A stretch of 28,250 nucleotides of DNA. Source: a virus. The notes under the pieces were generated by a model, which did not search any database, had not been told where the DNA came from, and saw nothing but the letters and a program-made list of their open reading frames with translations. Shown in pieces: positions 3,942 through 19,187 of the stretch. A program made the translations under genes and the position numbers. The stretch spans positions 1 through 28,250 of the IMG/VR virus record IMGVR_UViG_3300027710_001435, one strand, 5' to 3'. The number at the start of each line of letters is the position of its first letter. Positions within the stretch are counted from its first letter, which is position 1.

Positions 3942-3978
3942 TTACTGTCAAAATTCCTTTGTTGTATTTTTGAGACAC

Positions 3979-4490: not shown

Positions 4491-4519
4491 AGTATATATG
4501 CCTTTTGATTTATTGTCAA
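4491..4519 (-). promoter_or_regulatory. Tandem sigma-70 promoter, copy 3 (distal)
   Basis: Minus strand TTGACA (4519-4514), 17-base spacer, TATACT (4496-4491); exactly 98 bases from copy 2. Confidence 0.9.
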
Positions 4520-4578: not shown

Positions 4579-4619
4579 TGTAAACTAAATAAAGTTAGTA
4601 CAATTTTATTTAGTTTACA
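4579..4619 (+). promoter_or_regulatory. 15-bp perfect hairpin just upstream of the PaaK-like gene
   Basis: TGTAAACTAAATAAA (4579-4593) pairs exactly with 4605-4619 around an 11-base loop. It ends 16 bases before the ATG at 4636. AT-rich and without a T tail, so more likely an mRNA 5' stabiliser, operator or translational control element than a terminator. Confidence 0.6.
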
Positions 4620-4635
4620 TGTAGGACAACTTACC

Positions 4636-5598
4636 ATGATAGCAGAGCAATTAAAAAATATATTAAAAGATATGGGTGAAGATCGATTCTCGTCTATAGA
4701 TGAAATCCTATCCAAGAAAGAACAAAACTTGTCAGAAATCCAATCTAGAATGACAGCGTACCAAAAAGATTTTTGGTTTGATGGTCACGAAATTCAGTCT
4801 TCTAGTGACCTTGTAAAAGTAAGAGCCAAAAGTTCTATTGATATCATCAATGAACAACTAAAGACACCCCCTTATGGTATTTTTACTCCAGGGCCGATTG
4901 TGAGTACTAGCAGTGGATCAACGACTGGTATTAAAAAAATGTACCCTAGATCACTAGATGATTACTATCGGTATATGTTAGGTAAGATCAGGACCTTCCA
5001 ACACTATGGGGTAGATTCCAGTGATGTGTTTAGTTCAACTGAAACAGGCGGCATGTTCTTGGCACATGCTGGGCACGAAGATGCCGCAGTTATTTGTTAC
5101 AATGCAACACGTGCAAGAACACACGACCCAGTATTGACCAAACGTCTGGAGTTTATGGGAGAGATGGGCGTGACAATTATTTCAGGAACACCCACAAAAC
5201 TACTGCGTATGGCTAGACTTGGACCAAAAAAATACATAAAAAATAAGATTAAACTTATCATAAGTGTAGGGGAAAAGCTAACTGATGCAGAAGAAATCGC
5301 CAAAGCATTTGATGTAAAGTTAGTTACAGATTCATATGGATCTGTTGAAATGGGTAATATATTTTGGACCTGTCCGTTTGGTCATAAACATGTAAATGAT
5401 GACGTTCTACACATCATACCCAGCAATGACAATGATAGGTCTTTGTTTTCAAATTTAAGTTCATTGCCAGTTTTTAATTATGACTTGGGTGAGAATTTAA
5501 ATTTTAGTTATAAAGGTAAGTGTGAATGCGGTAGCTATTTACCAACAGTTGATGCATTCACCATCGATGGTCCCAGTAGAGCAAACAAAAACGATTAA
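4636..5598 (+). CDS. PaaK/CapK-like adenylate-forming enzyme (ANL superfamily)
   Basis: 320 aa from the ATG at 4636, chosen because the longer frame from 4543 reads through the 15-bp hairpin and AGGA precedes this ATG. The ATP-binding P-loop-like motif STSSGSTTGIK is at residues 90-100. DSYGSVEMG matches the YGxxE adenylate-binding motif, and a C-rich CPFGH...CECGSYLP segment resembles the zinc-binding part of phenylacetate-CoA ligase relatives. Such enzymes activate a carboxylate as an acyl-AMP and often transfer it to CoA or another acceptor. Family members are usually about 400-450 aa; here the mobile C-terminal lid domain seems absent, so it may only adenylate or may need a partner. First gene of a plus-strand operon; TctC-like gene 8 bases downstream. 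Confidence 0.8.
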   Translation: MIAEQLKNILKDMGEDRFSSIDEILSKKEQNLSEIQSRMTAYQKDFWFDGHEIQSSSDLVKVRAKSSIDIINEQLKTPPYGIFTPGPIVSTSSGSTTGIKKMYPRSLDDYYRYMLGKIRTFQHYGVDSSDVFSSTETGGMFLAHAGHEDAAVICYNATRARTHDPVLTKRLEFMGEMGVTIISGTPTKLLRMARLGPKKYIKNKIKLIISVGEKLTDAEEIAKAFDVKLVTDSYGSVEMGNIFWTCPFGHKHVNDDVLHIIPSNDNDRSLFSNLSSLPVFNYDLGENLNFSYKGKCECGSYLPTVDAFTIDGPSRANKND

Positions 5599-5606
5599 GG
5601 AATTCA

Positions 5607-6503
5607 ATGAAAAAAATTATTACAATACTCACAACATTACTGTTTACGACATGTGCTATTGCCAAACAAGAAGTAGAGATAGCCTGGTGGGCTGGTATTT
5701 CATCTGGTCCTATAAATTATGTAAGGGCAGTCATCGATGAGGCAAATAGAAAACAAGATAAGTATGTATTTGTCATAGTTGCAAAACCCGGGGCAGGTGG
5801 TGCTATTGCGGCCCAATATACCCTATTAAATAAAAAATTGACAATTTTGGGCACAGGGGATGCATTTTTTGTTAGACCTAATTTGTTCCCTAACGAAAAA
5901 TTGTATAGTGTTGACGATTTTAAATTAATAACACCGTTATCTAATTTACCTTATGCTGTCATTAAAAATAAAAACAAGTCAATGGCAGAATTAGAAAAGC
6001 AAAAACAAATTGTGATAGGTATAGGTGGTTTAGGAACGCAACAACATTTGATTGCAGAACAACTTAAATTAAAGCACCCAAACTTAGTAATTGTACCATA
6101 TAGCGCACATACTGATGCTACCCGAGAAGTATTAGGTGGGTTTGTAGACATGAGCACTGATTTCTTAGTTGGAGTAGCGCAATACCCACAACTTGATGTG
6201 ATAGGTATCACCGGTCGTACCAAAATTGGCAACCACGACACTTTATCTAGTAAAGGGTATGTAGGTCTAGAGAAATATAATATAAACATTTTTATGGTTG
6301 CTCCCGCAAACATGCCAGTTAATACGTATGACGAAATACATGATATTCTAGCAGATGCACAAACTAATAATATTAAGTTAGAGGAAATGTACAAACGTGA
6401 CTTTGCTTCAAAAATTGTTTTGAATAAATCTGATTATCCAAATTGGATACGTGAAAAACAGAACGAATTTAAAGTCAAAACAAAAAATATCAAGCTAGAC
6501 TAA
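5607..6503 (+). CDS. Bug/TctC-family periplasmic solute receptor
   Basis: 298 aa. N-terminal signal peptide (MKKIITILTTLLFTTCAIA, cleavage near residue 19), then the Bug fold: WWAG near the mature start, AKPGAGGAIAAQY (the conserved PGAGG loop), LGTQQHLIAEQL, VPYSAHTDATREVLGG and MSTDFLVG. The family binds carboxylates (citrate, nicotinate, aspartate and others) in the periplasm for TTT transporters or signalling. No membrane TctA/TctB genes are present, so a host transporter or another role is implied. AAGGAA lies upstream, 8 bases from the previous stop. Bug receptors are greatly expanded in Burkholderiales, hinting at the host. Confidence 0.9.
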   Translation: MKKIITILTTLLFTTCAIAKQEVEIAWWAGISSGPINYVRAVIDEANRKQDKYVFVIVAKPGAGGAIAAQYTLLNKKLTILGTGDAFFVRPNLFPNEKLYSVDDFKLITPLSNLPYAVIKNKNKSMAELEKQKQIVIGIGGLGTQQHLIAEQLKLKHPNLVIVPYSAHTDATREVLGGFVDMSTDFLVGVAQYPQLDVIGITGRTKIGNHDTLSSKGYVGLEKYNINIFMVAPANMPVNTYDEIHDILADAQTNNIKLEEMYKRDFASKIVLNKSDYPNWIREKQNEFKVKTKNIKLD

Positions 6504-6504
6504 A

Positions 6505-7488
6505 ATGAAAAAACTATTACTCGTGGGAAGTAGTCTTTTTGTCGAGAATCATTTCAATTTTAAAATTAATAATATCACAGATAAGGATGAATATCCAATC
6601 AGTGATATGTGTGCTAAACTAGGTGATTTTTCTTCTACAAAAACAGTTGCAATCAATGCCGCAGGAAACCAATGGACTGCGGCAGCCGTCATAAATCAAT
6701 TAAAAGAAATTGATGCTAATACACATGTGATTGTGCAATGGTCGGGTATCGACAGATGGGACATGTTTTTGCCTAGTAGTAAAAATAATGAAGATTTAGG
6801 ATTTAATGATATAAATTCCCTACCAGAGCATTTACGAAATGATCCGGTGTTTACCAATACGCATGATCTAGAGGGTAAACCCACAGATACTGGGTTTAGA
6901 GTTTGGATTACCGGTGCTATGTATTTAGGAAAAAAGTTCTATTATCGTAAAAATTACTTTAGTTGGCCTGACGCATTCAAATCATCATGTGAATCAATTG
7001 CCCTTGTACAGAAACTAATCGAAGAAACCGGTGCTACACAACAACATATGATACCATGGGATTACACTCGTATATTAGAGAGGGACATAATAAAACATTT
7101 TGCCCTAAATCTAACAGATCAAAACAACTATGTACCAGTAGAATTACCATCGTTAGAATTCAATGTGCTGGAGGCTTATCCGATATTAAAGGTCTGGCAT
7201 AACATGATCGACTGGTCTACTGTTCCGGAAACACATTTAGAGTTCTTTCATAGGAATAAGCTACCCAGCTGGTGTGGAAGAATGGATCATGCACACCATC
7301 CTCTTCCGCTAATTAATTATTTTTATATCAAAGACCAATATTTCCCTAACAGCAAAGTAGATTTATTAGACGAAGTGATGGTTGCGACCAAGCGACACTG
7401 TGAAAAATACAATGTAAATTTAGACTTTAACAGTGACTCTATCAAATTTATGATAAATAGATTAAAAGGAGCACACAATGAGTGTTGA
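6505..7488 (+). CDS. SGNH/GDSL hydrolase-like protein
   Basis: 327 aa. KLLLVGSSL at the N-terminus fits the GDS(L) block with Ser; NAAGNQW fits the block II Gly; VIVQWSGIDRWD is in the place of block III (GxND, here GID). MDHAHHPLP near residue 270 supplies the DxxHP catalytic pair of block V. The fold suits an esterase or acyl hydrolase; no signal peptide, so cytoplasmic. The start lies 1 base after the stop of the Bug gene. Block III lacks the usual Asn, so activity is uncertain. Similar proteins occur in T4-like phage accessory regions. Confidence 0.65.
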   Translation: MKKLLLVGSSLFVENHFNFKINNITDKDEYPISDMCAKLGDFSSTKTVAINAAGNQWTAAAVINQLKEIDANTHVIVQWSGIDRWDMFLPSSKNNEDLGFNDINSLPEHLRNDPVFTNTHDLEGKPTDTGFRVWITGAMYLGKKFYYRKNYFSWPDAFKSSCESIALVQKLIEETGATQQHMIPWDYTRILERDIIKHFALNLTDQNNYVPVELPSLEFNVLEAYPILKVWHNMIDWSTVPETHLEFFHRNKLPSWCGRMDHAHHPLPLINYFYIKDQYFPNSKVDLLDEVMVATKRHCEKYNVNLDFNSDSIKFMINRLKGAHNEC

Positions 7489-7795
7489 AAAAAGTTTTGA
7501 TCTATTTGCCGTAAGACCTAGTCTAGATATACCGTTTTACGATACTACTACATTTGATGATTACCTAGAAGAAAAATACTGCAAAGCTAACAAAATGATA
7601 GTATCCCCTCATACCGAGATATCGGACGGTTTTATTCAGAAAAAAAGAATTTCATTTGTAACTTTGGACGATTGGGCAGAGTTTTTACAAGATCCAGTTT
7701 TTTATGAGTTTTCTGTCAACAGAAGCGAATACGAATCAGCTAATGGAATACAACGTTACAAAGAAGTAGTTGACGTTTCCACAATAAACGGTTAA
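7478..7795 (+). CDS. Hypothetical protein, 105 aa
   Basis: ATG with AAAGGAG 7 bases upstream, overlapping the SGNH gene by 11 bases, so translationally coupled. Soluble, acidic, with aromatic residues scattered (FDLFAVRPSLDIPFYDTTTF, WAEFLQDPVFYEF). No family recognised. Last gene of this plus-strand operon; its stop overlaps the stop of the convergent Bug gene, leaving no room for a separate terminator. Confidence 0.75.
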   Translation: MSVEKSFDLFAVRPSLDIPFYDTTTFDDYLEEKYCKANKMIVSPHTEISDGFIQKKRISFVTLDDWAEFLQDPVFYEFSVNRSEYESANGIQRYKEVVDVSTING

Positions 7796-8709
7796 TTCTT
7801 TGGCATCAACAGAAGCTGTTTTGCTAGCTTCTGTCTTTCTAATCTTGCAAATTCCTGAAACGACAAGCGATTAATTCGCTTGTCGTTTGTGTTTATACCT
7901 TGTGTTTTCATTTGTTCAACTAACAACGGATCTCTAACTAGTTCATTCAATATACGAGTAAACTTATCAACGTTTTCTCTGTCTGCCTTTGAACTCATTA
8001 CAAATCCAAATACAGTTACATCTGAATCTAAATTTGGAATAAACTTTTGTAGATTAGGTTCGACTAAATCGTCTTCCCCTACTGCTCCAACTATTCTAAG
8101 TTGCCCTTGCATGTGTGGGTTTTTTGCAACAGCATACGGTATAAATGCATAATCTACATTCTTCCCGTATATATCAGCTAACAACGGACCTGTGCCCCTA
8201 TAATCTACTATGACTGCATCCTTTGATCCCAACTGAATAGTAACATAATTAGTCAACACTTTTAATCCTAATGCGCCGCTAGCAAAGGTAACTTTGTCGG
8301 TTGTAATGTGTGTGATAACGTCTTTGACCGAACGGTTGTTGTCGGGATGTGTTACTAACACAGTTACACTAGATCCTATTGCTCTAACGTATGTCAAATC
8401 ATTGGGGTTATATTTTCTTACACTATCACTAAGTACGACAGAGTGTGCATACTGAGCTTGTGTTGCCATACATATTAAATTTTTATCATCGTACAGTGCT
8501 TCACACTCGTTCATACCAATGATGCCGCCAGCGCCTTCTTTAAACATGAGAACATTTTTATATCCATTACGGGATGCGGCATCTGATATGATTTTAGTAG
8601 TTATATATTGACCTCCGCCGGGAGCAAATCCAACTAAAAATTTTATAACATTCTGATCCGCAAAACAGATTGCGGGCACTAACAGTAAAAAGATTAATAT
8701 TTTTTTCAT
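7792..8709 (-). CDS. Second Bug/TctC-family periplasmic solute receptor
   Basis: 305 aa. Signal peptide (MKKILIFLLLVPAICFA, cleavage near 17), then VGFAPGGGQYITTKII, the conserved EGAGGIIGMNE loop, YRGTGPLLADIYG and DYAFIPYAV. It is diverged from the copy at 5607, so not a recent duplicate; ligands probably differ. Last gene of the long minus-strand operon from 15943. It overlaps the PP-loop gene by 4 bases (ATGA) with AGGAA upstream. Again no membrane transporter subunit is present. Confidence 0.9.
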   Translation of the reverse strand: MKKILIFLLLVPAICFADQNVIKFLVGFAPGGGQYITTKIISDAASRNGYKNVLMFKEGAGGIIGMNECEALYDDKNLICMATQAQYAHSVVLSDSVRKYNPNDLTYVRAIGSSVTVLVTHPDNNRSVKDVITHITTDKVTFASGALGLKVLTNYVTIQLGSKDAVIVDYRGTGPLLADIYGKNVDYAFIPYAVAKNPHMQGQLRIVGAVGEDDLVEPNLQKFIPNLDSDVTVFGFVMSSKADRENVDKFTRILNELVRDPLLVEQMKTQGINTNDKRINRLSFQEFARLERQKLAKQLLLMPKN

Positions 8710-9881
8710 ATAACATTTCCTAAAGTAAAGATACTACTTATCATCATTTTTGGTCTATTGAGAGATTCTACGTAATTCGATGATTTATGTACGGTGTTCC
8801 AAGAAGCACTGTGATGGTTCCATATTTCTATAAATCTAGAAAATTCAGGGGAGTTTAAATACAATCTATCTCTTGTTCTTCCAGCTTGACTCAATGGCAT
8901 GGGTTTGTTAACTTGAAACTTGTCATGATTCCATGTGGTATAAATCAAATCTATCGATAGTCTACGCATGGCTTCTTGCCGTACATGATCGTTTGAACTT
9001 ATACCAGCTACATCAACCAATGACAGCATATGTGGGTTTTCTTTAAAATACAGATAATGCTTGTATGCTTGCTCAAATGCTATTTCTGGCATGTCAATAG
9101 ACCAGTAGAACAATTCAGTATTGCATGTAGAATACCCATATCTACTATTACCATCTGAGTTCACACTATGAGAATGTCTAGCAACATTGGCAGCAATATC
9201 TGTAAAAAACATAACCAAGTTATTATCTTTAACTAATACGACGGGCTTATCAATTCCATATATGTCAGCTACGGTCTTTCCTTGACGTTCTAGCTCAGGG
9301 ATAGAACTAGAATGAGAAGTCTGTCGTAAGATTTCAAATGCACCAGTATAATGCCCCGCATATAACATAGTATCATCATTCAATAGTTTTTCGATTGGTT
9401 TCTCAAATACATCATGTATGTTTATCTTTATGTCAGGATGTGTAGCACTAACCATTTCTAACGCAGGCTTTATAACAAAATCCCATTCAGAGTGAATATT
9501 CTCTGCGTCACGATTGTGCATGTTTGGTGTATAAATTACCGTGTCTACTGATTTGCTGTATTGCACATATATTTCATCTAACTTGATATTGTTATTCAGA
9601 AATGTCATAAGTATGTTGTGACTATCTGCACCGCCGCTATAGTTCAAAATGAGGTAATCATACTTGTCACGCAATTGTAAGGCACGTTGCTTATATAACT
9701 CATCTAATGAACGTGTACCCAAAAGATGCCTGTTGTTATTCAAATACAATGACCAACATTGGTCATTGAAGTCCCAACGCATGGGTTTGCCAGTGACAGC
9801 AGATTCATACAATGCTTGATTTTTAAAAAAGAATTTATTATCACCCACTTCATAGTAGCCACAGGGAAAAACATTAGACAT
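8706..9881 (-). CDS. PP-loop ATP-pyrophosphatase family protein (asparagine synthase-like), A
   Basis: 391 aa. LILNYSGGADSHN at 78-89 is the SGGxDS PP-loop that holds ATP in asparagine synthases, QueC and related enzymes that adenylate a carboxyl or carbonyl group before amide or N-bond formation. The glutaminase domain of AsnB is absent (no N-terminal Cys), so nitrogen would come from an amine donor or partner. The remainder is mixed alpha/beta and not assigned. Overlaps the second PP-loop gene by 8 bases, suggesting a pair working together. Beta-lactam synthetase-like or tRNA-modifying roles cannot be excluded. Confidence 0.7.
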   Translation of the reverse strand: MSNVFPCGYYEVGDNKFFFKNQALYESAVTGKPMRWDFNDQCWSLYLNNNRHLLGTRSLDELYKQRALQLRDKYDYLILNYSGGADSHNILMTFLNNNIKLDEIYVQYSKSVDTVIYTPNMHNRDAENIHSEWDFVIKPALEMVSATHPDIKINIHDVFEKPIEKLLNDDTMLYAGHYTGAFEILRQTSHSSSIPELERQGKTVADIYGIDKPVVLVKDNNLVMFFTDIAANVARHSHSVNSDGNSRYGYSTCNTELFYWSIDMPEIAFEQAYKHYLYFKENPHMLSLVDVAGISSNDHVRQEAMRRLSIDLIYTTWNHDKFQVNKPMPLSQAGRTRDRLYLNSPEFSRFIEIWNHHSASWNTVHKSSNYVESLNRPKMMISSIFTLGNVI

Positions 9882-10797
9882 ATGTAGATCCTGTTATATC
9901 TATACTGAGTTCATCAAGGGTCCTGTCGTACCCTCCCCTATTATGAAGACCATTGTATTTCTTGGTTAACAATGCTTCCATTTCGTTTACAAGAGTATCT
10001 ATTTTTTCAAAGCCTGTTTGTTTTACTCTATGCAATAAGTCAGGATATGCTTCTCTGTACCCCATGATTTTCGTTGATGTTACACCTAGTTTACCAAAAA
10101 ATTCATCATTAACTAATCGCTTGAACCAATTAAGCCTAGTATATGATACTACGATACCCGGAGTCCATTTGAACCATTCAGCACAACCCGATCGATTGAT
10201 AGCTCTTAAATACTTTGACCAAGCAGTATCATGCTCCCAACAACGTATTTTCCACGTTCCTTTTTTTGTGTAATCGTTATCTAATCTATACGCTGTTAGG
10301 TCACTTGCGCCCAAGACAGGGAAGCCATCTACTGTACTTAAAAATTTACAGTAAGGTAATGCGCGTGGTCTATCTATTTGAGCTATCTCAGATATAGCCT
10401 CAGCATCATTTTCATAAAACTTCTGTAAATTGAAGTCTACCAAATTGAAATCTATATTCAGTGAATGACAGATAGCGACGGCATAACTAACATCATATAA
10501 ATTGTAATCTTTTTCATATCTAAAAATATAAACATTAGGTTTAACCCCAATATCTAAATAAGACCTGATGACTAATTCACTATCAAGTCCACCGCTAAAC
10601 ATAACAGATGGTGTTCCTAAATTTAACTCCATAGTGTCTCTAGCTACATTGTGTAATTCTTCTTTAAAGCTAAGTATCGAACCATGATACCTTGAAAAGT
10701 AACTTTTGAATTGTTGTGAACCACTTAAGCGGCGACCGAATAACTCGCCGTCATCATACTTCCAACTATACCAATTGTCCTTACTAGTGTATATCAT
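9874..10797 (-). CDS. PP-loop ATP-pyrophosphatase family protein (asparagine synthase-like), B
   Basis: 307 aa. SVMFSGGLDSELVIRSYLD (64-82) is a textbook asparagine synthase C-domain PP-loop; CKFLST...PVLGASDLTAYRLDND continues as in that domain. No glutaminase domain. The protein is shorter than AsnB (about 550 aa) and matches only its synthetase half. Overlaps protein A by 8 bases downstream and the fatty acid hydroxylase by 4 bases upstream. The two PP-loop proteins differ at the loop (GLDS versus GADS), so they are probably functionally distinct partners. Confidence 0.75.
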   Translation of the reverse strand: MIYTSKDNWYSWKYDDGELFGRRLSGSQQFKSYFSRYHGSILSFKEELHNVARDTMELNLGTPSVMFSGGLDSELVIRSYLDIGVKPNVYIFRYEKDYNLYDVSYAVAICHSLNIDFNLVDFNLQKFYENDAEAISEIAQIDRPRALPYCKFLSTVDGFPVLGASDLTAYRLDNDYTKKGTWKIRCWEHDTAWSKYLRAINRSGCAEWFKWTPGIVVSYTRLNWFKRLVNDEFFGKLGVTSTKIMGYREAYPDLLHRVKQTGFEKIDTLVNEMEALLTKKYNGLHNRGGYDRTLDELSIDITGSTYV

Positions 10798-11225
10798 GTG
10801 ACTTTCTTATATGTACCAAATACTAAATCCCACACTGGGGTAAATAGACCATAGTTGCACGGAGATCGATGATGGATCAAATGCCATTTTCCGCTAGTCA
10901 GCACTGGTAAATCAACAGTAGAATTATGTTCTATTGATTCTTGTATGAAGGACGCCCAAACATAGTATAAGACAAATATCCACCATTGTCCAGTTATTAA
11001 ACTGAAAACAATCGTAGGTATAACTTCTGTGATCCATAAATCTAAAGTGCTTATCCAAGTGTCATTGAACAAAAATAGATTTGACCAGTGCCACCCTGTC
11101 GGATTAGATAAGATGTATGCATGATGATGTAGATGAATTTTAGACACCCATGGCATTACGTGACCGATTCGGTGTATTACATACAACATCAAAGTCCATA
11201 AGAAAAAATATATAACAACCATCAC
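10794..11225 (-). CDS. Fatty acid hydroxylase / sterol desaturase superfamily membrane di-iron enzyme
   Basis: 143 aa. His boxes HRIGH (18-22), HLHHH (31-35) and HLIHH (115-119), followed by PVWDLVFGTY, are the hallmark of the family; they bind two irons at the membrane face. Membrane segments near 3-17, 66-80 and 82-96. The protein is short for the family (often 200 aa or more) but keeps all boxes. It would hydroxylate a fatty-acyl chain or a carotenoid/hopanoid-like lipid. Overlaps neighbours on both sides by 4 bases (ATGA), so one transcript. Confidence 0.88.
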   Translation of the reverse strand: MMVVIYFFLWTLMLYVIHRIGHVMPWVSKIHLHHHAYILSNPTGWHWSNLFLFNDTWISTLDLWITEVIPTIVFSLITGQWWIFVLYYVWASFIQESIEHNSTVDLPVLTSGKWHLIHHRSPCNYGLFTPVWDLVFGTYKKVT

Positions 11226-11803
11226 TGTTCTCTGAATTCAGGTTTTAGTACTCTACACTTTATTGCTATACTCTCGGGCCGTAGCTCCTGTCCCATCAGG
11301 CGCCAATAAATCTCAGACTCTGGTTTGGTGTTAGGTGGAATAACTGCTACTAGGGACATATCATATCTACCATGAAAGCCCAACTTATTCTTTTTCCACT
11401 GGGTCTCATACACCCGCTCCAGTCTGTTAGAGATACTATAATAATATGTATAATACTTATTACCCTCTGCAATCTCAAATGCCTTTTTTGTCAGCAACCC
11501 TATTTTTAGATTGTTGAATGAAAAGTAATTACCAATATCTCTAGTATAGAGTGCAGTTATAGCCCATACTTTTCCGTCTTTGGGTCCTTCTGCAAATCCC
11601 AAAGATATCCAACTATGAAGGGCACCATCTTCTATGTAGCCAATTGAACAACTTTTGTCATTTGGAGTCAAACATCCGGTGATGAATTCTTGAGTTTTTT
11701 GTGTAAACTCCGTTCGAATTCCACTGATTTTTGCTTTGGCTTTAGCTATGTCGATACATTGCTCTAAGTACTCTTCGGTAAGAATAGCTATTTCTGTTGA
11801 CAT
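11222..11803 (-). CDS. GNAT-like acyltransferase, putative
   Basis: 193 aa. The layout suits a GNAT fold: N-terminal beta-alpha (IAILTEEYLEQCIDIAKAK), central strands (SCSIGYIEDGALHSWISLGF, WAITALYTRD) and an alpha/beta end (LLTKKAFEIAEGNKYYTYYYSI; RVYETQWKKNKLGFHGRYDM). I do not see a clean Q/RxxGxG acetyl-CoA loop, so the assignment is weak. Lies between the hydroxylase and a desaturase with a 4-base overlap and no gap, suggesting a role in acyl transfer in the same pathway. Confidence 0.5.
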   Translation of the reverse strand: MSTEIAILTEEYLEQCIDIAKAKAKISGIRTEFTQKTQEFITGCLTPNDKSCSIGYIEDGALHSWISLGFAEGPKDGKVWAITALYTRDIGNYFSFNNLKIGLLTKKAFEIAEGNKYYTYYYSISNRLERVYETQWKKNKLGFHGRYDMSLVAVIPPNTKPESEIYWRLMGQELRPESIAIKCRVLKPEFREQ

Positions 11804-12577
11804 TTATTTTTTGATTGATTTGATTATCAAGCCGGCTATATCAAATTCCCACCACGCTTGTGAGAACGTAGCATTACGCGGGAATCTATGATGGTTATTG
11901 TGCCATGCTTCTCCCCAACTAGGAATAGCCCACAGCCAGTTATTAGTGCTTTGGTCTGACAAACTATATCGTCTATAGCCACCCCACCAGTTTGGCTTAT
12001 GCCCTGCGTAGTTAACAACATTGGACATGATTCCTGTAATAACAGCAGGTGCCCAATGTAGAAATACCATTAACCAAAATCCACCCACAGCAAATAACAA
12101 AAGACTATAGGCTGCAAGTATTACAAAATAATAACGATGTAAAAATTGATGGAATTTATCAGTCACTAGTCCACGCATTCTCCATTTAGTATCTGAATTA
12201 ACTTCATTGACGTAATCGAGGGTAAAGATTCTTAGCCCTTTATAATGCGGGCTGTGCGGATCCTCTGGCTTATCACTTTTTAAGTGATGATTGATATGAA
12301 TTGCAACCCATGCCAATGGACTGCCAGTGCCAGCAAAGCACCCAAGAAATGCAAAAAGTTTAGTCAACCACGGGTATGTTTGATAGCTGTCATGTGTGTA
12401 TTTTCTATGGAATGTTAGTACGATGCCCAAACAGCCATATAAAAAATAACCTAGTACTGTTAGTAGTAGTGCGTTAATAGATATACCATATGTAATTGTG
12501 GCAGCAATGGTGCCGGCCATGGCCAGGATCATAAATAGTTGTGCACCTTTTGTGCTAGAGGATAGATGTTGCATCAT
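11804..12577 (-). CDS. Acyl-lipid/acyl-CoA desaturase (delta-9 type), A
   Basis: 257 aa. Three His boxes: HRKYTH (57-62), HINHH (94-98) and HNNHH (226-230), as in stearoyl-CoA/DesC-type desaturases. Four hydrophobic segments near 14-30, 33-54, 73-92 and 150-186. EDPHSPHYKG after box II and the WGEAWHNNHH context are typical of the bacterial class. It introduces a cis double bond in acyl chains of membrane lipids using O2 and a reductase supplied by the host. A TATAAATA late box ends 2 bases before the ATG, overlapping the upstream stop. Confidence 0.93.
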   Translation of the reverse strand: MMQHLSSSTKGAQLFMILAMAGTIAATITYGISINALLLTVLGYFLYGCLGIVLTFHRKYTHDSYQTYPWLTKLFAFLGCFAGTGSPLAWVAIHINHHLKSDKPEDPHSPHYKGLRIFTLDYVNEVNSDTKWRMRGLVTDKFHQFLHRYYFVILAAYSLLLFAVGGFWLMVFLHWAPAVITGIMSNVVNYAGHKPNWWGGYRRYSLSDQSTNNWLWAIPSWGEAWHNNHHRFPRNATFSQAWWEFDIAGLIIKSIKK

Positions 12578-12579
12578 AT

Positions 12580-12587
12580 TATTTATA
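12580..12587 (-). promoter_or_regulatory. T4-type late promoter box before desaturase A
   Basis: Exact TATAAATA on the minus strand, 2 bases before the desaturase ATG and overlapping the preceding stop codon. If used, the transcript would be nearly leaderless; it could also be chance in AT-rich DNA. Confidence 0.4.
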
Positions 12588-13113
12588 TCTTTAGGCTATT
12601 AAGTATCTCATTAAATTTGTGATTTCTCCACCTATATGTTAACATTGTTCTAGGTGTAGCTGTTGTTTTTTGTATTCCGTGTATTTCCGTAACATTTAGT
12701 AGATACAAGTCATTTGTCTGAGCAACGAATCTACCGGTCTCAACTAATGATGACAATGACGTAGTATATGGTTTAGCATCTCTCACAACATGATAAGTAC
12801 CATCAGCATTAACCTCATCATAAAAAATAGTTGTCGCATCGTCTGTATTCAAGTACAAATTCATAGCAACACAGTCTGATTTGTCACGGTGCGGGGTGAC
12901 CAATCCGGATCCAGTAAATTCGCAAAAAGCAATACTAGTAGGGAATATAGTAAAAATACTACGATGCAACATCAAAAATTCTGTAATATTGCCCACTTTA
13001 TAGAAATAGCTGCCGGCACCGCGCACTTCAGAATAATGTTGGTCTAATATTATATTTGTTTTAAACTTAGACCAATCAACGGTTGGTAATTTATTCTGTA
13101 ACTTGACAAACAT
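12583..13113 (-). CDS. 2OG-Fe(II)-oxygenase-like protein, paralogue of 2907-3437
   Basis: 176 aa, the same length as the paralogue. VTPHRDKSD supplies HxD (75-77), EIHGI the distal His145, and TPRTMLTYRW the 2OG-binding Arg155. DATTIFYDE and FVAQTNDLYLLNVT align with the sibling. The HxD is followed by strands rich in aliphatic residues, as expected for a jelly-roll. Probably hydroxylates a small molecule or peptide made or modified in this operon; not an AlkB or a P4H on visible motifs. Tightly packed: 1 base after the upstream stop. Confidence 0.8.
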   Translation of the reverse strand: MFVKLQNKLPTVDWSKFKTNIILDQHYSEVRGAGSYFYKVGNITEFLMLHRSIFTIFPTSIAFCEFTGSGLVTPHRDKSDCVAMNLYLNTDDATTIFYDEVNADGTYHVVRDAKPYTTSLSSLVETGRFVAQTNDLYLLNVTEIHGIQKTTATPRTMLTYRWRNHKFNEILNSLKI

Positions 13114-13114
13114 A

Positions 13115-13699
13115 TTAAATTATCCATGCTACTTCTTTGTATTTTTCAGTACTGATATTAAGTGTTTCATAAAAATCAGGTTTAGGTGTACCGTATACAA
13201 TTAGTAAACCCTTAGAATATCTAGGATCATAATGTGCGGCGTGTTTAAGAGGATAATCATAATAATAAAATGAATTTGTGTCTTCCGGCAAGCTCATTTG
13301 TCTCACACTGTCTCCGTACTTAAACATCCATATAGAATCAGGATACGTATTCCAAAGTACTGATCTAAATTCATGTTTGGGATACAATACATCGCTATGA
13401 AATTGTATAGTTTCTAAATTTTCCATCACACGAATAAATGTAGGTTCAAATGGGCAATGAGTTCTAACCTGTTCTATTAAATCATCAGCGGCTGGGTGTT
13501 TAGGTGCTACTGCAGCCTCATATACTTCATGATTGAATTCATTCATTAAGTCGAACCCTTTCCAGGGCGAACCAAATGCTGGATTGTGATTTGTTACTTT
13601 TTTGTTTATTAATTGTGCATGGTTATTCCACAAATCCCACCATGCATCCCAATCACTAGGGACTATTTTTGGTATATCTAACGGGGTGAACAATATCAT
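13115..13699 (-). CDS. 2OG-Fe(II)-oxygenase-like protein, divergent
   Basis: 194 aa from ATG at 13699, chosen because it gives the ATGA overlap with desaturase B that is the habit of this operon. An in-frame ATG at 13723 would add 8 residues and a 28-base overlap. IQFHSDVLYPKHEFRSVLWN holds an HxD, and KHAAHYDPRYSKGLLIVYG a later His and basic residue; this resembles small phage and cyanobacterial 2OG-dioxygenase-like proteins. Trp-rich N-terminus (DWDAWWDLWNNH). The metal-site assignment is plausible, the substrate unknown. Confidence 0.6.
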   Translation of the reverse strand: MILFTPLDIPKIVPSDWDAWWDLWNNHAQLINKKVTNHNPAFGSPWKGFDLMNEFNHEVYEAAVAPKHPAADDLIEQVRTHCPFEPTFIRVMENLETIQFHSDVLYPKHEFRSVLWNTYPDSIWMFKYGDSVRQMSLPEDTNSFYYYDYPLKHAAHYDPRYSKGLLIVYGTPKPDFYETLNISTEKYKEVAWII

Positions 13700-14454
13700 T
13701 TTTGAATTACTTTTATTAGCCATGCCATTGGGTCTATTTCGTATGGTTTAACGGTGGTAGAATAACTACTTGCTACTGCATGATGATTGTTGTGCCAAGC
13801 TTCTCCTAATAACAACGGGAAAAGATAAGGGCAATTTCTACTGTCATCTGTCGTATTCTCATTTCTATAACCATACGTGTGACCACAGTAATTGAACACA
13901 GACTGGCTGATTTGAATAATTACTGCCGGCAACACCCAAGCAAAATAGAACAGTGTAAAGTTAGTGAGGGCAAAAAGAACACAAAAACTGAATAAACCCA
14001 ATGCATACCACGTGTGTATGAATATCTGTTCTTTTGTCATCAAGTCTTTTATCAAAAACAATTTCATGTTTTCTTCTTGTTTTTTGAAGTGGCTGAAGCC
14101 AAACATCTTAAATCCCAAATGCTTAGGACTATGAGGATCTTTTTCAGTATCAGAGTATGCATGGTGCTGTCTATGCAAATATACCCAGCCTAACGGACTT
14201 CCTCGACCGGCTAACAATGCTAATAACAAAAATATTTTTTCTATAAAATTGTGTCTGAACTTAAATGATTTGTGAGAATAATAACGATGCATCGTCATCC
14301 ACACTCCTAAAATATTTAAAATATAGAAGCTGACAGCAGTTATTAATAGATTAGACCACACAAACCATCCGGTGTTGAACAATCCCATTATGGCAATAAC
14401 GAAGGTTGATAGTGTTAATATACTTATATTTCTAGAGGTTGATCCGTATGTCAT
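13696..14454 (-). CDS. Acyl-lipid/acyl-CoA desaturase, B
   Basis: 252 aa. His boxes HRYYSH (56-61), HRQHH (94-98) and HNNHH (221-225); hydrophobic segments near 13-32, 34-54, 72-92 and 150-183. Same class as desaturase A and similar in layout (EKDPHSPKHLGF after box II), but diverged enough that a different chain position or lipid is likely. An exact TATAAATA lies 4 bases before the ATG. Two desaturases plus a hydroxylase in one phage operon point to acyl-chain tailoring. Confidence 0.93.
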   Translation of the reverse strand: MTYGSTSRNISILTLSTFVIAIMGLFNTGWFVWSNLLITAVSFYILNILGVWMTMHRYYSHKSFKFRHNFIEKIFLLLALLAGRGSPLGWVYLHRQHHAYSDTEKDPHSPKHLGFKMFGFSHFKKQEENMKLFLIKDLMTKEQIFIHTWYALGLFSFCVLFALTNFTLFYFAWVLPAVIIQISQSVFNYCGHTYGYRNENTTDDSRNCPYLFPLLLGEAWHNNHHAVASSYSTTVKPYEIDPMAWLIKVIQK

Positions 14455-14458
14455 CTAG

Positions 14459-14466
14459 TATTTATA
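14459..14466 (-). promoter_or_regulatory. T4-type late promoter box before desaturase B
   Basis: Exact TATAAATA on the minus strand, followed by CTAG and the ATG. Same close placement as at desaturase A. Confidence 0.45.
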
Positions 14467-14470
14467 TGGT

Positions 14471-15943
14471 TTACATCTGACCTAAAATTGATTTAGGTAA
14501 TGATTTGCAAAATGCTTGTGCTCTATCAAACTTACTCTTACGTAATTCGGCTGTAAATTCATGCGGGTAATATAACGAGTTGTTAATAAAGTCTTCCGAT
14601 TTATCAATTTGCCAGCAGCCTGCAATACTCCAACCACCTATATATTGTTTATTTTCTGACTGTTTGTTTAACTTGGTTGTCAACTCTGTTGCAGTAATAT
14701 CTGTAAAGAATGCTGAACTCCATGTACGAGTATTAGGAGTAGCAGTGTACCCATATTTTTCTGGGTTTTTATCAAATTCAGACTGTAGGCTAGATTGGCT
14801 GCTCGTATCCTTGCGTATCAATAGAGATTGAAATTGCCACGATCTACAAAAAGAATCTACGTTATTCATTAAAAAGTCATATGTTTGATACAAGTCGTCA
14901 GGTGTTTCATGTGGCAAACCTACGATGAAACTACCGTTAATGCGGACTTGTCGATTATTTTGTTCGGCTAACTTGAAACAAGCCTCTTTAACTTTTTCAA
15001 TATTAGTACCTTTTCCGATTATCTTACGAGTCTGGTTTTTGAAGCTCTCAAATCCTATATAGGCACCGCGCAAGCCTAGATTGGCTAGCTTTGGTATCAT
15101 TTCTTGTTTGGTTACTAGCAATTCAGGTTTTATGTACGAAACAAATTCAAACTTGGGCAATTTAGCTAATTCAATAGCTTTTTCCAATCTATCCAACTTT
15201 TCTATACTATCATTAAACGTGTCATCTAAGATAGTATATCTAGTGGTACCAAACAAATCATAATTACGCCGCAGTTCGTTAGCAATATTCTCTGGTGTTC
15301 GCTGATAATCATCGTAACTTTTTTTACCTTGAAAAGGATGTTTGCAAAATGTGCATCTAAAAATACATCCTCGACTGATTTCAATTGGTACTGGTTGATA
15401 ACTTTCAAAACCATCCGATTTTCTAAATACTGTTTCAATTGAATCTGGATTTAATACCGGGTGAGCGTTATCACTATCAATGAAATAACCCTTGTTGATT
15501 AGGCTTCGGTGGTGAACAAGCTCATTGGACAATCCGTTAATTTTTTTCAAAAATTCAACAAAGCTAACATCACTAAACCCATTAAAATGATAATCACTGT
15601 ACTTGAGTATCATATTTCTAAATCCAAACGATTGATGACCGCCAGTTATAACCAACAGCGATGGATATCTAGCAGTCAGGTTGTTAAAAAAATCAACATT
15701 GTACCAGTTTCTGTTTGTTTCATATTCAAGTGCAATCCAAGATACACTGAATCCTATGAATTTAGTATTAGGTGTGATGACTGCATCGATGATGTCAAAA
15801 ATTTGTTTTTGAGAAATGTAACCAAGTATGTCACATACTGCAATTTCATAACCCGCTTTCTCGGCCGCGGTTCGAAGTCTAGCTCCCGCAATTCCTCTTC
15901 CAGCGAGATCCCAATTTTGGCTTAGAAATACTATGCCTTCCAT
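14471..15943 (-). CDS. Radical SAM enzyme with B12-binding-like N-terminal domain, A
   Basis: 490 aa. Residues 1-150 resemble a cobalamin-binding Rossmann domain (VFLSQNWDLAGRGIAGARL; FIGFSVSWIAL; SLLVITGGHQS), but the DxHxxG cobalamin-ligand motif is not visible. The radical SAM core begins at RGCIFRCTFC with CxxxCxxC at 193/197/200, the [4Fe-4S] site that cleaves SAM. FIVGLPHETPDD is the later GxP motif of B12-type radical SAM proteins. Such enzymes methylate, rearrange or couple unactivated carbons in natural products and lipids (for example hopanoids). First gene of the minus operon, 16 bases before desaturase B. Distant paralogue of the divergent gene at 15999. Confidence 0.85.
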   Translation of the reverse strand: MEGIVFLSQNWDLAGRGIAGARLRTAAEKAGYEIAVCDILGYISQKQIFDIIDAVITPNTKFIGFSVSWIALEYETNRNWYNVDFFNNLTARYPSLLVITGGHQSFGFRNMILKYSDYHFNGFSDVSFVEFLKKINGLSNELVHHRSLINKGYFIDSDNAHPVLNPDSIETVFRKSDGFESYQPVPIEISRGCIFRCTFCKHPFQGKKSYDDYQRTPENIANELRRNYDLFGTTRYTILDDTFNDSIEKLDRLEKAIELAKLPKFEFVSYIKPELLVTKQEMIPKLANLGLRGAYIGFESFKNQTRKIIGKGTNIEKVKEACFKLAEQNNRQVRINGSFIVGLPHETPDDLYQTYDFLMNNVDSFCRSWQFQSLLIRKDTSSQSSLQSEFDKNPEKYGYTATPNTRTWSSAFFTDITATELTTKLNKQSENKQYIGGWSIAGCWQIDKSEDFINNSLYYPHEFTAELRKSKFDRAQAFCKSLPKSILGQM

Positions 15944-15974
15944 AACAAACCAGAAAAAGTAAAATTAAACATAA

Positions 15975-15995
15975 GAATATTTATGTTAAATATTC
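15975..15995. promoter_or_regulatory. Palindromic divergent control region
   Basis: GAATATTT (15975-15982) pairs with AAATATTC (15988-15995) around 5 bases. It includes CATAAATA on the minus strand (15978-15985), a late-promoter-like box for the radical SAM A operon. It lies in the 55-base gap between two divergent operons. Confidence 0.5.
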
Positions 15996-15998
15996 ACT

Positions 15999-17492
15999 AT
16001 GCAAGTTATTTTATTCACCGACGTTGCTGATACTTTGGGTTACGGTAAGTACGCAGGTACGTACAAAGTTGCTACTGAGGTAAGAAACGCTGGGTACACA
16101 TGTCAGGTTGTTGATTTGTTCAGTAAATTTACTTACCAAGAACTCGAAAATATCATTAACAAGTTTGTTACCAGCGAAACTGTTCTTATTGGGTTCAGTT
16201 GTACTCTGATGGAAAAGCGTGTTGGGTTATATGGTAGTAAAAATTCTACAGTATATAATTTTGGTAGACCTGACAGTGAAGTTGAGAGTCTATTGAATCT
16301 TGCCAAATCTAAGAATTCAAAGATTAAAACAGTAGTAGGTGGTGCTCGTATCAATATGAATGTAGGGTGGTCATTCATTGATTACGCAGTAGTCAACAAA
16401 GGTGACACTGCTATAGTTAAGCTGATAGAGCATTTGCTATACGGTAACAACTTACCTGCAGTAAGAACTGATCCTATTGTTGTAATCGATGGAAGCAGTA
16501 GTGATTACTTCTATACACAAGAGCAATTCGCTACAAGTAAAATTATATATCAACCACAAGATATTATATTACCCGGTGAGTGCTTGCCGATTGAAGTAGC
16601 ACGTGGATGCATTTTTAGTTGTGCTTATTGTCACTTTGACTTGATTGGTAAGCGGATCGGTGATTGGCAGAAAGCAGAAGATTCATTACGTGATGAATTG
16701 TTACGCAACTACGAACTTTATGGTACTACTCATTACATGGTATCGGATGAGTTGATTAATGAGAGCCTTCCTAAAATGGAACTCGTTCACAACGTCTTTA
16801 CTAATCTACCTTTCAAAATTACATATACTAGCTATGCACGACTAGATTTGATATCAGCATATCCACAGATGCGTGACATGATACAAGAGAGCGGTGCTGT
16901 TAGTATTGCATTTGGTATAGAAACAATGAACGATGTCGCTGGTAAAAAGATCGGCAAAGGCTTAGGTAAGGTTAGAACTAAAGCGGCATTAGCACATTGT
17001 GCCGAAACTTGGAAAGGTAAGATTATTACAAGTAGTCAATTTATTGTTGGCTTACCCGGTGAGAATGAAGCAAGTATGCGTGAAACTGTCGATTGGCTAG
17101 TCAGCGATGAATGTGATTTAGATATATTCGGATTCTTGCCATTGTTTATTAGACCAGAAGAAGATGGTCGATCTACTAGTAAGATTGACAGAGATCCTAG
17201 TAAATTTGGGTATGTATTACATGAGGACAAACCTTGGGAAGGCGAGCACATGAACTTCCAAGAAGCGTGTAAACTAGTATCAAGTTTGTATAGTGACCCT
17301 AGAGTACAAAAGAAGATTAAGTTTTCTGCGGCAACATGGATTGGAAGACTATTAAATTTAGGTTATAATATTGAAGATATCTTTAGCATGATTAATAATC
17401 CAAATCTTGCAAAGAATGAAGTTATTAATATCATCAATGAAAAGTCAGATGTTAAGAAACAAATATATTATGAAGAACTGATGAAAATATAA
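15999..17492 (+). CDS. Radical SAM enzyme with B12-binding-like N-terminal domain, B
   Basis: 497 aa. N-terminal Rossmann-like domain (VILFTDVADTLGYGKYAG; VLIGFSCTL; KTVVGGARINM), then RGCIFSCAYCHFDLIGKR with CxxxCxxC at 204/208/211 and FIVGLPGENEAS downstream. The same two-domain plan as enzyme A and a shared RGCIF(R/S)C core, so an ancient duplication. YELYGTTHYMVSDE and IAFGIETMND are typical of the core barrel. First gene of a plus-strand three-gene operon with a GNAT and a 2OG-like enzyme. Cobalamin use is inferred, not shown. Confidence 0.85.
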   Translation: MQVILFTDVADTLGYGKYAGTYKVATEVRNAGYTCQVVDLFSKFTYQELENIINKFVTSETVLIGFSCTLMEKRVGLYGSKNSTVYNFGRPDSEVESLLNLAKSKNSKIKTVVGGARINMNVGWSFIDYAVVNKGDTAIVKLIEHLLYGNNLPAVRTDPIVVIDGSSSDYFYTQEQFATSKIIYQPQDIILPGECLPIEVARGCIFSCAYCHFDLIGKRIGDWQKAEDSLRDELLRNYELYGTTHYMVSDELINESLPKMELVHNVFTNLPFKITYTSYARLDLISAYPQMRDMIQESGAVSIAFGIETMNDVAGKKIGKGLGKVRTKAALAHCAETWKGKIITSSQFIVGLPGENEASMRETVDWLVSDECDLDIFGFLPLFIRPEEDGRSTSKIDRDPSKFGYVLHEDKPWEGEHMNFQEACKLVSSLYSDPRVQKKIKFSAATWIGRLLNLGYNIEDIFSMINNPNLAKNEVINIINEKSDVKKQIYYEELMKI

Positions 17493-17493
17493 C

Positions 17494-18096
17494 ATGTCTG
17501 AACTAATTGAATACAAAAACTTAACTAATCATCAACGTGAAATATTTTTTGATTTTTTAAAAGAGGCTAGAAAAGAAACAACTCAGCCTGCACACGAGAA
17601 TATGTGGAATGCTGATTGGCAAAATCAAACACACACCTTACCTTATCTATTAGAAAAAACAGATAGATTCTCTATTGGTGGAATCTACAACGTAGTATTC
17701 GACCGAGATATTGTAGTGGCGTGTAGTGGAGTATACACTAGTACATTCTGTACTGAGTTAGCGATAGCAGGAACACGCACTTGGATTAATAAAGAATACA
17801 GAAACAAGTCTATATCTAGGGATATATTAGCTAATGAAAAGTTATGGGCTATTAACAATAATTTTAAAGCTGTAGGTATTTGTTTCAATGATTACAATAA
17901 AAATATTATTAATATTTGGAAACGAATTCGACTAGGAGAAAAAAGAACTCCTAGAATGGCACATCATTTATTCTTTAAAGGCGTTAGTGAAGTTCCATTT
18001 CCAGTTACTATTCAATATACTAAACAATGGCTAATATATGAAAAGTTAAAAGAAGATTTTAACTTTAACTGGAAAGATATTGAATGGAAAATTTGA
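17494..18096 (+). CDS. GNAT-like N-acyltransferase, putative
   Basis: 200 aa, starting 1 base after the radical SAM stop. The middle looks GNAT-like: VVFDRDIVVACSGVYTS, TELAIAGTRTWINKEYRNK, then a helix SRDILANEKLWAINNNFKAVG where the acetyl-CoA-binding loop would be (YRNKSIS in place of Q/RxxGxG), then a C-terminal NKNIINIWKRIRLG segment. Cytoplasmic, no membrane segment. Overlaps the following oxygenase-like gene by 13 bases. A second GNAT-like gene lies at 11222, so both operons carry an oxygenase plus an acyltransferase. Confidence 0.6.
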   Translation: MSELIEYKNLTNHQREIFFDFLKEARKETTQPAHENMWNADWQNQTHTLPYLLEKTDRFSIGGIYNVVFDRDIVVACSGVYTSTFCTELAIAGTRTWINKEYRNKSISRDILANEKLWAINNNFKAVGICFNDYNKNIINIWKRIRLGEKRTPRMAHHLFFKGVSEVPFPVTIQYTKQWLIYEKLKEDFNFNWKDIEWKI

Positions 18097-18641
18097 AATG
18101 TCACTATCTCTTAGATTTATCAACATCTTATTTTATAAAAGATATTGATACTATTCCACAACTACCCGTAGGTAAAGAATTTCATGTCACAGCATGTGAT
18201 CCTCAAATATACTTACATGAGCATGTGTACAAAAAACTATCAGAATTAGGGTCATTGGCTAGTTTAGTTTTTTCTATGAAACCGGGGGCTGATAAGAAAA
18301 GCATTCACATAGACCTTGATGCAAAAACTCAAACGCCGTATTGGCCCAGTTTAAATATTGTTATTGATGGTCAAGGGATAATGAGATGGTTTAATCCAAC
18401 TAAACCCGGAGTTGTGTTAAAAAATAATAGTGCAGGAGTATTTTATAAAGCTTGGTTTCATGATTACGGCGATACAGTTGATGAATGGAATGTCGGAAAA
18501 GTTGCATTAGTGCGAACTGATATTCCTCATCAAGTTTGGAATTTTGACAATGACATTAGGCGTATTGTCTCTATCCGATGGGATAAAAAAACGAGTTGGG
18601 AAGAAACAATTGAATGGTTCAATCGTAACTTCCCTATATAA
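18084..18641 (+). CDS. 2OG-Fe(II)-oxygenase-like protein (aspartyl hydroxylase-like)
   Basis: 185 aa. SIHIDLD holds HxD (75-77), followed by PSLNIVIDGQGIMRWF. IPHQVW gives the distal His149 and RRIVSIRW the anchoring Arg, in the order expected for the jelly-roll core. The family resembles small phage and cyanobacterial aspartyl/asparaginyl hydroxylase-like proteins. Translationally coupled to the GNAT gene. It ends directly against the stop of convergent ahpD with no spacer. Substrate unknown. Confidence 0.75.
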   Translation: MENLKCHYLLDLSTSYFIKDIDTIPQLPVGKEFHVTACDPQIYLHEHVYKKLSELGSLASLVFSMKPGADKKSIHIDLDAKTQTPYWPSLNIVIDGQGIMRWFNPTKPGVVLKNNSAGVFYKAWFHDYGDTVDEWNVGKVALVRTDIPHQVWNFDNDIRRIVSIRWDKKTSWEETIEWFNRNFPI

Positions 18642-19187
18642 TCAAGGTGCGACTTTTCCAATTGCAGTAACGACTGCGGCAATACGACCGACAGACATTA
18701 ACTCTTGCGTAGTCATGCCTTCTTTCTTTAGTGTATCATAATGTGCCTTGACACAGAAATGACATTTACCAACGATACTTGCGGCTAATGAATACATTTC
18801 GAATTTCTTTTTAGATACCCCACCGTGAGTAGCATATGCGTTCATACGCAAGCCTGCGGGTAAACCCTTCATTGATTCGTCACCTGCCATCTCAACGAAT
18901 GGATACCATACATTGTTTTGACCCATGAGACTTGCGGCTGTCTTTGCGGCTTCACGTTCTTCTGCACCCATTAATGGACCATTCATTTGAATTTCAAATG
19001 CTAGTTCACCGTTACCTGAGGCAATTGCGGCTGCTAATGCACAAGCATGTGCATCAACTAAATCTAATCCACTACGGTTAATAACCGCATCTAGGTTCAA
19101 CTTAATGTCTTTGGAATGATCTGGAATAGATTCTTTTACGTTCGCAACCCAGTCGCCACCGATTGTGATTGGATTGATTTGATTCAT
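18642..19187 (-). CDS. ahpD: Alkyl hydroperoxide reductase AhpD-like protein
   Basis: 181 aa. Carboxymuconolactone decarboxylase/AhpD fold with the catalytic set Glu130, Cys142, Cys145 and His149 (KCHFCVKAHYD). In AhpD these form a CxxC disulfide relay that re-reduces peroxiredoxin AhpC. Length is standard for AhpD. It overlaps ahpC by 4 bases (ATGA), the usual ahpC-ahpD order, so the phage carries a complete two-component peroxidase. Better conserved than the accessory island genes, suggesting recent gain from a host. Confidence 0.93.
   Translation of the reverse strand: MNQINPITIGGDWVANVKESIPDHSKDIKLNLDAVINRSGLDLVDAHACALAAAIASGNGELAFEIQMNGPLMGAEEREAAKTAASLMGQNNVWYPFVEMAGDESMKGLPAGLRMNAYATHGGVSKKKFEMYSLAASIVGKCHFCVKAHYDTLKKEGMTTQELMSVGRIAAVVTAIGKVAP

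Follow-up and report, generated by a model that had tools for sequence, protein, structure and literature searches.

A coupled gene island in a piece of a phage genome

The IMG/VR virus record IMGVR_UViG_3300027710_001435 (28,250 bases, taken whole as the window of this analysis) carries 12 tRNA genes in its left part, and a PAAR protein, an endolysin and a ribonucleotide reductase beta subunit in its right part. These genes identify the window as a piece of a larger tailed-phage genome. An island of 17 open reading frames (ORFs), adjoined by the tRNA array, occupies positions 4636–18641. We consider it somewhat better than an even bet that these genes form a dedicated biosynthetic cluster of the phage, whose output is a small acyl-amide-type molecule. 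An earlier sequence-only reading of the window had described 17 tightly coupled genes, and the ORF list bears this out, since neighbours overlap by no more than 28 bases or are separated by very small gaps. Every enzyme class named in that reading is likewise supported by a profile, a motif or a fold; what it left out were two exported solute-binding proteins of the Bug family. Family calls were based on Pfam, NCBIfam and PDB profiles and on motifs, complemented by structure models for two proteins, PPA and GNATa.

The genes are arranged in three strand blocks. Four plus-strand genes (4636–7795) are predicted to encode, in order, a PaaK/F390-synthetase-like AMP-forming ligase (AMP-ligase, 4636..5598), the TctC-type solute-binding protein Bug1 (5607..6503), a 327-residue protein (6505..7488) and a 105-residue protein (7478..7795). 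Ten minus-strand genes, read from 15943 down to 7792, follow the order rSAM1, a B12-type radical SAM enzyme (14471..15943); the membrane fatty-acid desaturase DES2 (13696..14454); u202, a 2-oxoglutarate (2OG) oxygenase-like protein (13115..13723); a 2OG/Fe(II) oxygenase-like protein (12583..13113); a second desaturase, DES1 (11804..12577); the GNAT-fold acyltransferase GNATa (11222..11803); a short membrane di-iron hydroxylase (10794..11225); the PP-loop ATPases PPB (9874..10797) and PPA (8706..9881); and a second TctC-type protein, Bug2 (7792..8709). Three further plus-strand genes (15999–18641) encode rSAM2, a B12-binding radical SAM enzyme (15999..17492), the GNAT-like protein GNATb (17494..18096) and OGb, an Asp/Arg-hydroxylase-like 2OG oxygenase (18084..18641).

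The core genes recur together in other phages

A profile scan of IMG/VR with PPA returned 381 relatives, of which the best 78 loci were kept; together with the window these make 79 loci in 60 groups at 90% identity. When single sequences of PPA, rSAM1 and AMP-ligase served as queries, almost nothing was returned; the PPA sequence found one phage, compared with 381 by profile. Within about 10 kb of PPA, we found Bug genes in 57 of the PPA-seeded loci, a desaturase in 42 and PPB in 36. On the long records (102–353 kb), 15 of 16 Bug genes and 19 of 26 desaturase genes tested lie within 15 kb of PPA, compared with 3.4 and 4.5, respectively, expected from random placement. Because seeding with PPA could bias this picture, PPB and Bug were also used as independent seeds. 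The PPB scan, made with two tight alignments, yielded 80 loci in 60 groups, 40 of them full length; these 40 contained a GNAT protein (40), a desaturase (39), a 2OG oxygenase (36), an acyl carrier protein (ACP; 15) and PPA (15). The Bug scan gave 35 loci, many on contigs already found, and PPA lay within 6 kb of Bug in 26 of them. Taken together, the scans identified more than 120 distinct IMG/VR phage contigs with linked modules. The sequence-only reading had pointed out that genes found singly and shuffled among relatives would favour unrelated cargo; the cores instead co-occur across these contigs, though accessory genes do shuffle.

Two modules can be distinguished, and both are present in the window, ACP excepted. 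Module A has in many phages the order GNAT, ACP, PPB, GNAT, desaturase, with 2OG oxygenases associated. We counted 33 contiguous PPB-GNAT-desaturase operons, 19 of which also contain ACP, and their intergenic gaps are mostly −4 bases (start/stop) or other overlaps. The ACPs of these homologous operons are assigned from the phosphopantetheine-binding profile (PF00550, 4.6e-5 in the one ACP tested) and from the serine of the DSL phosphopantetheine motif, found in all 20 listed ACPs. The window has GNATb, PPB, GNATa and the two desaturases, and the family of GNATb (GNAT54) directly precedes ACP(-PPB) in six operons. PPB is strongly associated with desaturases (odds ratio 37, p 6e-6), and desaturases of the operon clade have HX3HH as second histidine box. 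Protein distances are correlated across operon genes (PPB-GNAT, r 0.80; PPB-desaturase, 0.62; PPB-ACP, 0.60), values reached in 0 of 2000 permutations and to which shared phage ancestry contributes. Gene fusions were also seen: PPB2, a PP-loop protein, with GNAT in L068, GNATa with a u202-type 2OG protein in L016, and cupin with 105-residue or c25 proteins.

Module B consists of PPA beside an exported TctC/Bug solute-binding protein. The two are direct same-strand neighbours in 40 cases; both orders occur, and their median gaps are −4 and 0. PPA-BUG adjacency was recorded in 26 places, with a median gap of −4. A signal-like N-terminal segment, judged by hydrophobicity only, is present in 57 of 58 Bug proteins. 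In the window, Bug1 and Bug2 combine such a segment with a PF03401 match (1.4e-10 and 6e-13), by which we class both as putative exported TctC/Bug proteins, and Bug2 overlaps PPA by 4 bases.

The neighbourhoods of both modules hold further recurrent families. DctP/TRAP-type solute-binding proteins found beside PPA and Bug (L070:12219-13178, L007:3957-4955, L077:12179-13144 and six others) differ from the Bug proteins: none of the nine has a signal-like segment, which suggests a cytoplasmic location. An accessory set of cytochrome P450, cupin and 105-residue proteins, some of them fused, recurs in relatives (L034:12489-13628, L033:11202-11792, L016:11191-14971, L025:11183-12100), and the 105-residue protein is associated both with P450 and with cupin (p 1.5e-4). 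In some phages (L020 1-13649, L142), the module is surrounded by four or five membrane desaturases that differ from one another, an arrangement reminiscent of polyyne clusters.

PPA and PPB are predicted PP-loop enzymes

The SGGxDS loop is invariant across 50 PPA homologues and is present in 33 of 33 operon PPB homologues. The AlphaFold2 (AF2) model of PPA is confident (pLDDT 90.9); its Foldseek matches in the PDB are all weak (E ~1e-2), the top ones being TilS, LarE and carbapenam synthetase, with the unrelated EgtD also present. PPB gave PDB profile matches to NAD synthetase (5e-7), MJ0690 (1e-5) and QueC, and a profile-profile comparison indicated that PPA and PPB are homologous (95.9% probability). 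From the loop, the fold of PPA, the profile matches of PPB and their mutual homology, both are predicted to be ATP-using enzymes of the PP-loop ATPase superfamily, and the bond that they form would be an amide (or nitrile-like) bond. PPA had no family match in Pfam, NCBIfam or PHROG. Two more specific identities were rejected: neither protein has an Asn_synthase or GATase match that would make it an AsnB-type glutamine-dependent amidotransferase, and PPB scored 15.7 bits against QueC (7-cyano-7-deazaguanine synthase), for which the cut-off is 150.3. A third PP-loop-like family, c23 (L046:5223-6293), DndC-like in PADLOC (7e-4), is recurrent in these neighbourhoods.

Other enzymes of the island

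The AMP-ligase matches Pfam AMP-binding weakly (E 0.0015), an NCBIfam F390 synthetase-related family (2e-8) and, in the PDB, phenylacetate-CoA ligase (5e-6), and it carries an SGSTTGIKK motif. Its ORF is open from 4543 and encodes the N-terminal domain only, and we therefore rejected a complete two-domain adenylate-forming ligase at 4636–5598. The acyl-adenylating enzyme of the sequence-only reading thus holds as a weak PaaK/F390-like AMP-binding match that lacks the C-terminal lid domain. No relative of this ligase was found among the PPA-seeded neighbour loci, which include two ACP operons.

Both desaturases match PF00487 (DES1, 6e-19, with a DesA-family match of 8e-28; DES2, 7e-17) and retain all three histidine boxes, as expected for membrane fatty-acid desaturases. 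The hydroxylase belongs to the FA_hydroxylase family (PF04116, 1e-11), with His motifs kept in five sequences. GNATa is modelled with a GNAT acetyltransferase fold (AF2 pLDDT 83.7; PDB GNATs, E 1e-7), and GNATb has a weak PDB match to PaiA. Of the acyltransferases proposed earlier, the GNAT fold stands, and nothing specific to long-chain acyl transfer was seen. An OlsB/FeeM/LuxI-type N-acyltransferase was rejected, given no PF13444 or autoinducer-synthase match among the 36 GNAT-like proteins scanned; these types were also absent among the 50 listed fold matches of GNATa.

The radical SAM enzymes match PF04055 (rSAM1, 3e-23; rSAM2, 3e-11), rSAM1 also matching the PhpK, HpnJ and lipid-B12 families (~1e-16), and rSAM2 PF02310 (2e-4) and the PhpK family (1.6e-17). 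The putative 2OG oxygenases are assigned from HxD...H motifs and weak profile matches: HxD...H is found in 6 of 6 members of the family (c42) of the protein at 12583..13113 and in 19 of 19 of the OGb family (PF05118, weak, 0.07), and the aligned HxD, R and H of u202 are invariant. A further 2OG-like protein, in the same cluster as that at 12583–13113, lies outside the island beside the tRNA array (2907–3437). The 327-residue protein is possibly SGNH-hydrolase-like, by eye only; none of Pfam, PHROGs, NCBIfam and PADLOC offered a convincing family for it, and it has one relative, in L047 (2.8e-59). The 105-residue protein belongs to a family present in 20 loci, and in relatives its genes adjoin those for PPA, cupin and P450. 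Anti-phage defence was rejected, as only weak profile matches (QueC, DndC, viperin-like) and a radical SAM match to PDC-M51A turned up and no complete system was seen.

The island is exchanged as a cassette

Right of 18640, the window and its nearest relative, L004, are 95–97% identical; from about 1790 up to 4525, they are 87–99% identical. Inside the island, identity drops to 65–76% where the two can be aligned, and the limits given by the sequence-only reading (4636–18641) thus agree with real cassette boundaries. Gene content differs as well, since L004 has a second PPA-Bug pair and lacks AMP-ligase. Near-identical flanks around a diverged island of different content indicate that it behaves as a replaceable cassette exchanged between close phages. 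The ratio of nonsynonymous to synonymous substitution rates (dN/dS) against L004 is 0.05–0.24 where dS could be estimated, dS being near saturation for most pairs (rSAM2, 0.08). On this basis, the island genes look functional and under purifying selection.

The conserved right flank begins with the minus-strand genes for AhpD (18642–19187; PF02627, 3e-14) and AhpC (19184–19723; PF00578, 2e-20), whose proteins are 97–99% identical to those of L004. An IscU-like gene has, at 20344–20392 (minus strand), an in-frame stop inside its conserved PACG-DV motif, within a short insertion relative to L004; it looks broken in the window and is intact in L004. At the left edge, directly 5′ of the first island gene, lies an 18-base inverted repeat (4579–4619, 94% complementary, 5-base loop), a possible operator or 5′ hairpin; an exact copy of one arm was found in 0 of 167 loci. 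Three tandem near-consensus sigma-70-type promoters (TTGACA-17-TATACT or TACAAT) lie inside imperfect repeats on the minus strand (4295–4323, 4393–4421 and 4491–4519), spaced by exactly 98 bases, with a fourth at 3923–3951. The tandem promoters point away from the island, toward the tRNA array.

Distribution outside IMG/VR

Isolated phages in INPHARED gave no match for PPA, PPB, ACP-type PPB, Bug2 or rSAM2, and distant desaturases only. Neither PPA nor PPB was found in PLSDB plasmids; among the PLSDB matches listed, Bug2 reached about 24–27% identity, mainly in Burkholderiales and Rhizobiales. The Bug family and these plasmid matches make a host in Burkholderiales plausible. An insensitive single-sequence scan of GTDB genomes with PPA returned only a 20-residue match, probably spurious, and profile scans of 198 genomes of one phylum (that of G001) gave no PPA and only weak PP-loop-type matches for PPB.

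A proposed phage pathway for an acyl amide

The case for a dedicated biosynthetic island is good: as described above, the core genes recur together in relatives, are translationally coupled, are fused in some phages and diverge in a correlated way, and the genes look to be under purifying selection. For the biosynthetic proposal, direct support comes from the genes and their families, the intact motifs, the operons and their co-inheritance, ACP in relatives, the signal-like segments of the Bug proteins and the purifying selection. Of the pathway suggested in the sequence-only reading, the biosynthetic island is well supported, and the acyl amide is chemically plausible as a product and strengthened by the ACP inside homologous operons. 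The O-antigen modification also suggested there is unsupported and was rejected, since neither glycosyltransferases nor sugar-nucleotide enzymes were seen among the island genes.

From these genes we infer an order of reactions, an import step, an amide bond, a product and a use, as follows. Expression would presumably take place while the phage infects its host. The starting compound would be a carboxylate, either scavenged or fatty-acyl-like. Exported Bug proteins could catch it in the periplasm and pass it to a TctAB-type permease of the host; additionally or instead, AMP-ligase or a PP-loop enzyme could activate it, and in relatives the phage ACP would hold it. Bug and PP-loop enzymes are often tied together in phages, which suggests that Bug provides the acid activated by PPA; this is the most suggestive and least proven part of the scheme. 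Unsaturation and oxidation of the chain would fall to the membrane desaturases, hydroxylase and 2OG oxygenases. GNAT enzymes would acylate an amine, and PP-loop enzymes would spend ATP on forming an amide (or nitrile-like) linkage. The product, which B12-radical SAM enzymes may methylate, rearrange or furnish with other groups, probably acts on the envelope of the infected cell, on competing phages or on neighbouring bacteria. Several features weigh against this scheme: the window itself has no ACP; the AMP-ligase is truncated at 320 residues, its match stopping before the lid; GNATa is closer to ordinary small-molecule acetyltransferases than to LuxI/FeeM; thiolation and nucleic-acid modification are also within the range of PP-loop enzymes, and the top fold matches of PPA include LarE and TilS; and the accessory genes around the cores vary strongly between phages.

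The strongest rival, which we still regard as unlikely, is membrane lipid remodelling, in which the phage would make or alter an aminolipid of its host (N-acyl amino acid, ornithine- or glutamine-lipid-like), or introduce double bonds and hydroxyl groups into lipids already present, so that the changed envelope blocks superinfection, keeps its fluidity or saves phosphate. Membrane desaturases next to an FA_hydroxylase-family enzyme, ACP with GNAT in one operon and the Asp/Arg-hydroxylase-like oxygenases adjoining desaturases in relatives all agree with it, and cyanophages carry lipid desaturases. Moreover, loss of aminolipids alters phage attachment in Ruegeria (PMC11631085). However, the 36 GNAT-like proteins include no OlsB-family PF13444 member, no O-acyltransferase was seen, and known aminolipids need no PP-loop, B12-radical SAM or Bug genes.

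Carboxylate scavenging comes next and seems improbable: Bug would redirect the carboxylate uptake of the host, and PP-loop, GNAT and oxygenase proteins would break down the acids taken in, or assimilate them or their nitrogen. This would account for the exported appearance of the Bug proteins and their close tie to PPA, and for accessory oxygenases (TauD, P450, Rieske, cupin) that differ between phages as catabolic genes do, but no catabolic trunk pathway accompanies them, and ACP, tandem desaturases and B12-radical SAM enzymes are biosynthetic in style. That the PP-loop, GNAT, radical SAM and 2OG enzymes act on phage DNA or tRNA, in a QueC-, TilS-, Elp3- or Mom-like manner, is in our view very unlikely; the weak likeness of PPB to QueC, TilS as top fold match of PPA, the known roles of GNAT and radical SAM enzymes in tRNA modification and the adjoining tRNA array fit such a role, which leaves desaturases, hydroxylase, AMP-ligase, ACP and exported Bug proteins without a function. 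Very unlikely, too, is a hot spot of unrelated auxiliary genes with no common pathway. Accessory content does differ even between phages with near-identical flanks, yet across dozens of diverged phages the gene order and start-stop overlaps of the cores persist, as do their fusions and the correlation of their divergence.

Beyond a phage-made acyl amide, a bolder version is conceivable, if rather doubtful: a natural-product system spanning phage lineages, in which an ACP-dependent, PP-loop-driven route makes a new class of acyl amides, which may be polyunsaturated or alkynyl, and is coupled to periplasmic receptors that the phage encodes. Swapping the cassette would then give each phage a different compound for chemical competition, signalling or superinfection exclusion. 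Single metabolic genes are already known in phages; here, dozens of diverged phages would have retained a translationally coupled multi-gene pathway with its own carrier protein, which they exchange as a unit. If so, large aquatic phages would run their own specialised chemistry, and many unannotated phage genes, together with two PP-loop families without assigned function, would gain a testable product.

Comparison with known systems

The sequence-only reading knew of no described phage pathway with this gene set, and we also found no description of it in the open-access literature, subscription papers and preprints lying outside that scope. PPA and PPB share the SGGxDS motif and HUP fold with NadE, QueC, carbapenam synthetase/AsnB, LarE and TilS, PPB resembling NadE and QueC by profile, and PPA resembling TilS, LarE and CarA weakly by fold. 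They differ from these enzymes in that PPA falls in no Pfam, NCBIfam or PHROG family and that no glutaminase domain is present.

The JamABC cassette, which makes terminal alkynes, consists of an ATP-using acyl-ACP synthetase, a membrane desaturase and a free-standing ACP (PMC4356899). The same three types of part (acyl-activating ligase, membrane desaturase, ACP) occur here; the phage operons differ in adding PP-loop and GNAT enzymes and in showing no polyketide synthase (PKS) or nonribosomal peptide synthetase (NRPS), and desaturase action on acyl-ACP would in their case be a prediction. We rejected a JamABC-type cassette with ligase, desaturase and ACP in one operon, as the window has ligase and desaturases without ACP and the PPA-seeded loci have no ligase relative. 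In aminolipid synthesis, an N-acyltransferase forms the amide with acyl-ACP (PMC11631085). Aminolipid and N-acyl amino acid synthesis (OlsB, GlsB, and FeeM with ACP) thus share the logic of amide formation by ACP and GNAT-type enzymes, with hydroxylases (OlsE) decorating the product (PMC11631085), but no PF13444 member and no O-acyltransferase was found here, and PP-loop enzymes would replace or add to amide formation.

Phage-carried biosynthetic gene clusters are mostly bacteriocin clusters of temperate phages. The island resembles these in placing putative specialised-metabolite genes on a phage, and differs in having no recognised precursor gene for ribosomally synthesised and post-translationally modified peptides, no PKS or NRPS gene, and a core that is widespread in large aquatic phages. 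Genes for 2OG enzymes and genes related to the tripartite tricarboxylate transporter have been reported singly in aquatic phages, with a tctA domain in SUP05 phages (PMC4164917). Such auxiliary metabolic genes, cyanophage desaturases included, are of the same types as those described here and stand alone there, whereas here, across the relatives of the island, they are grouped into operons of several genes together with ACP, GNAT and two families of PP-loop enzyme that were not reported there. The island thus extends the known auxiliary metabolism of phages, and there is a real chance that it represents a new kind.

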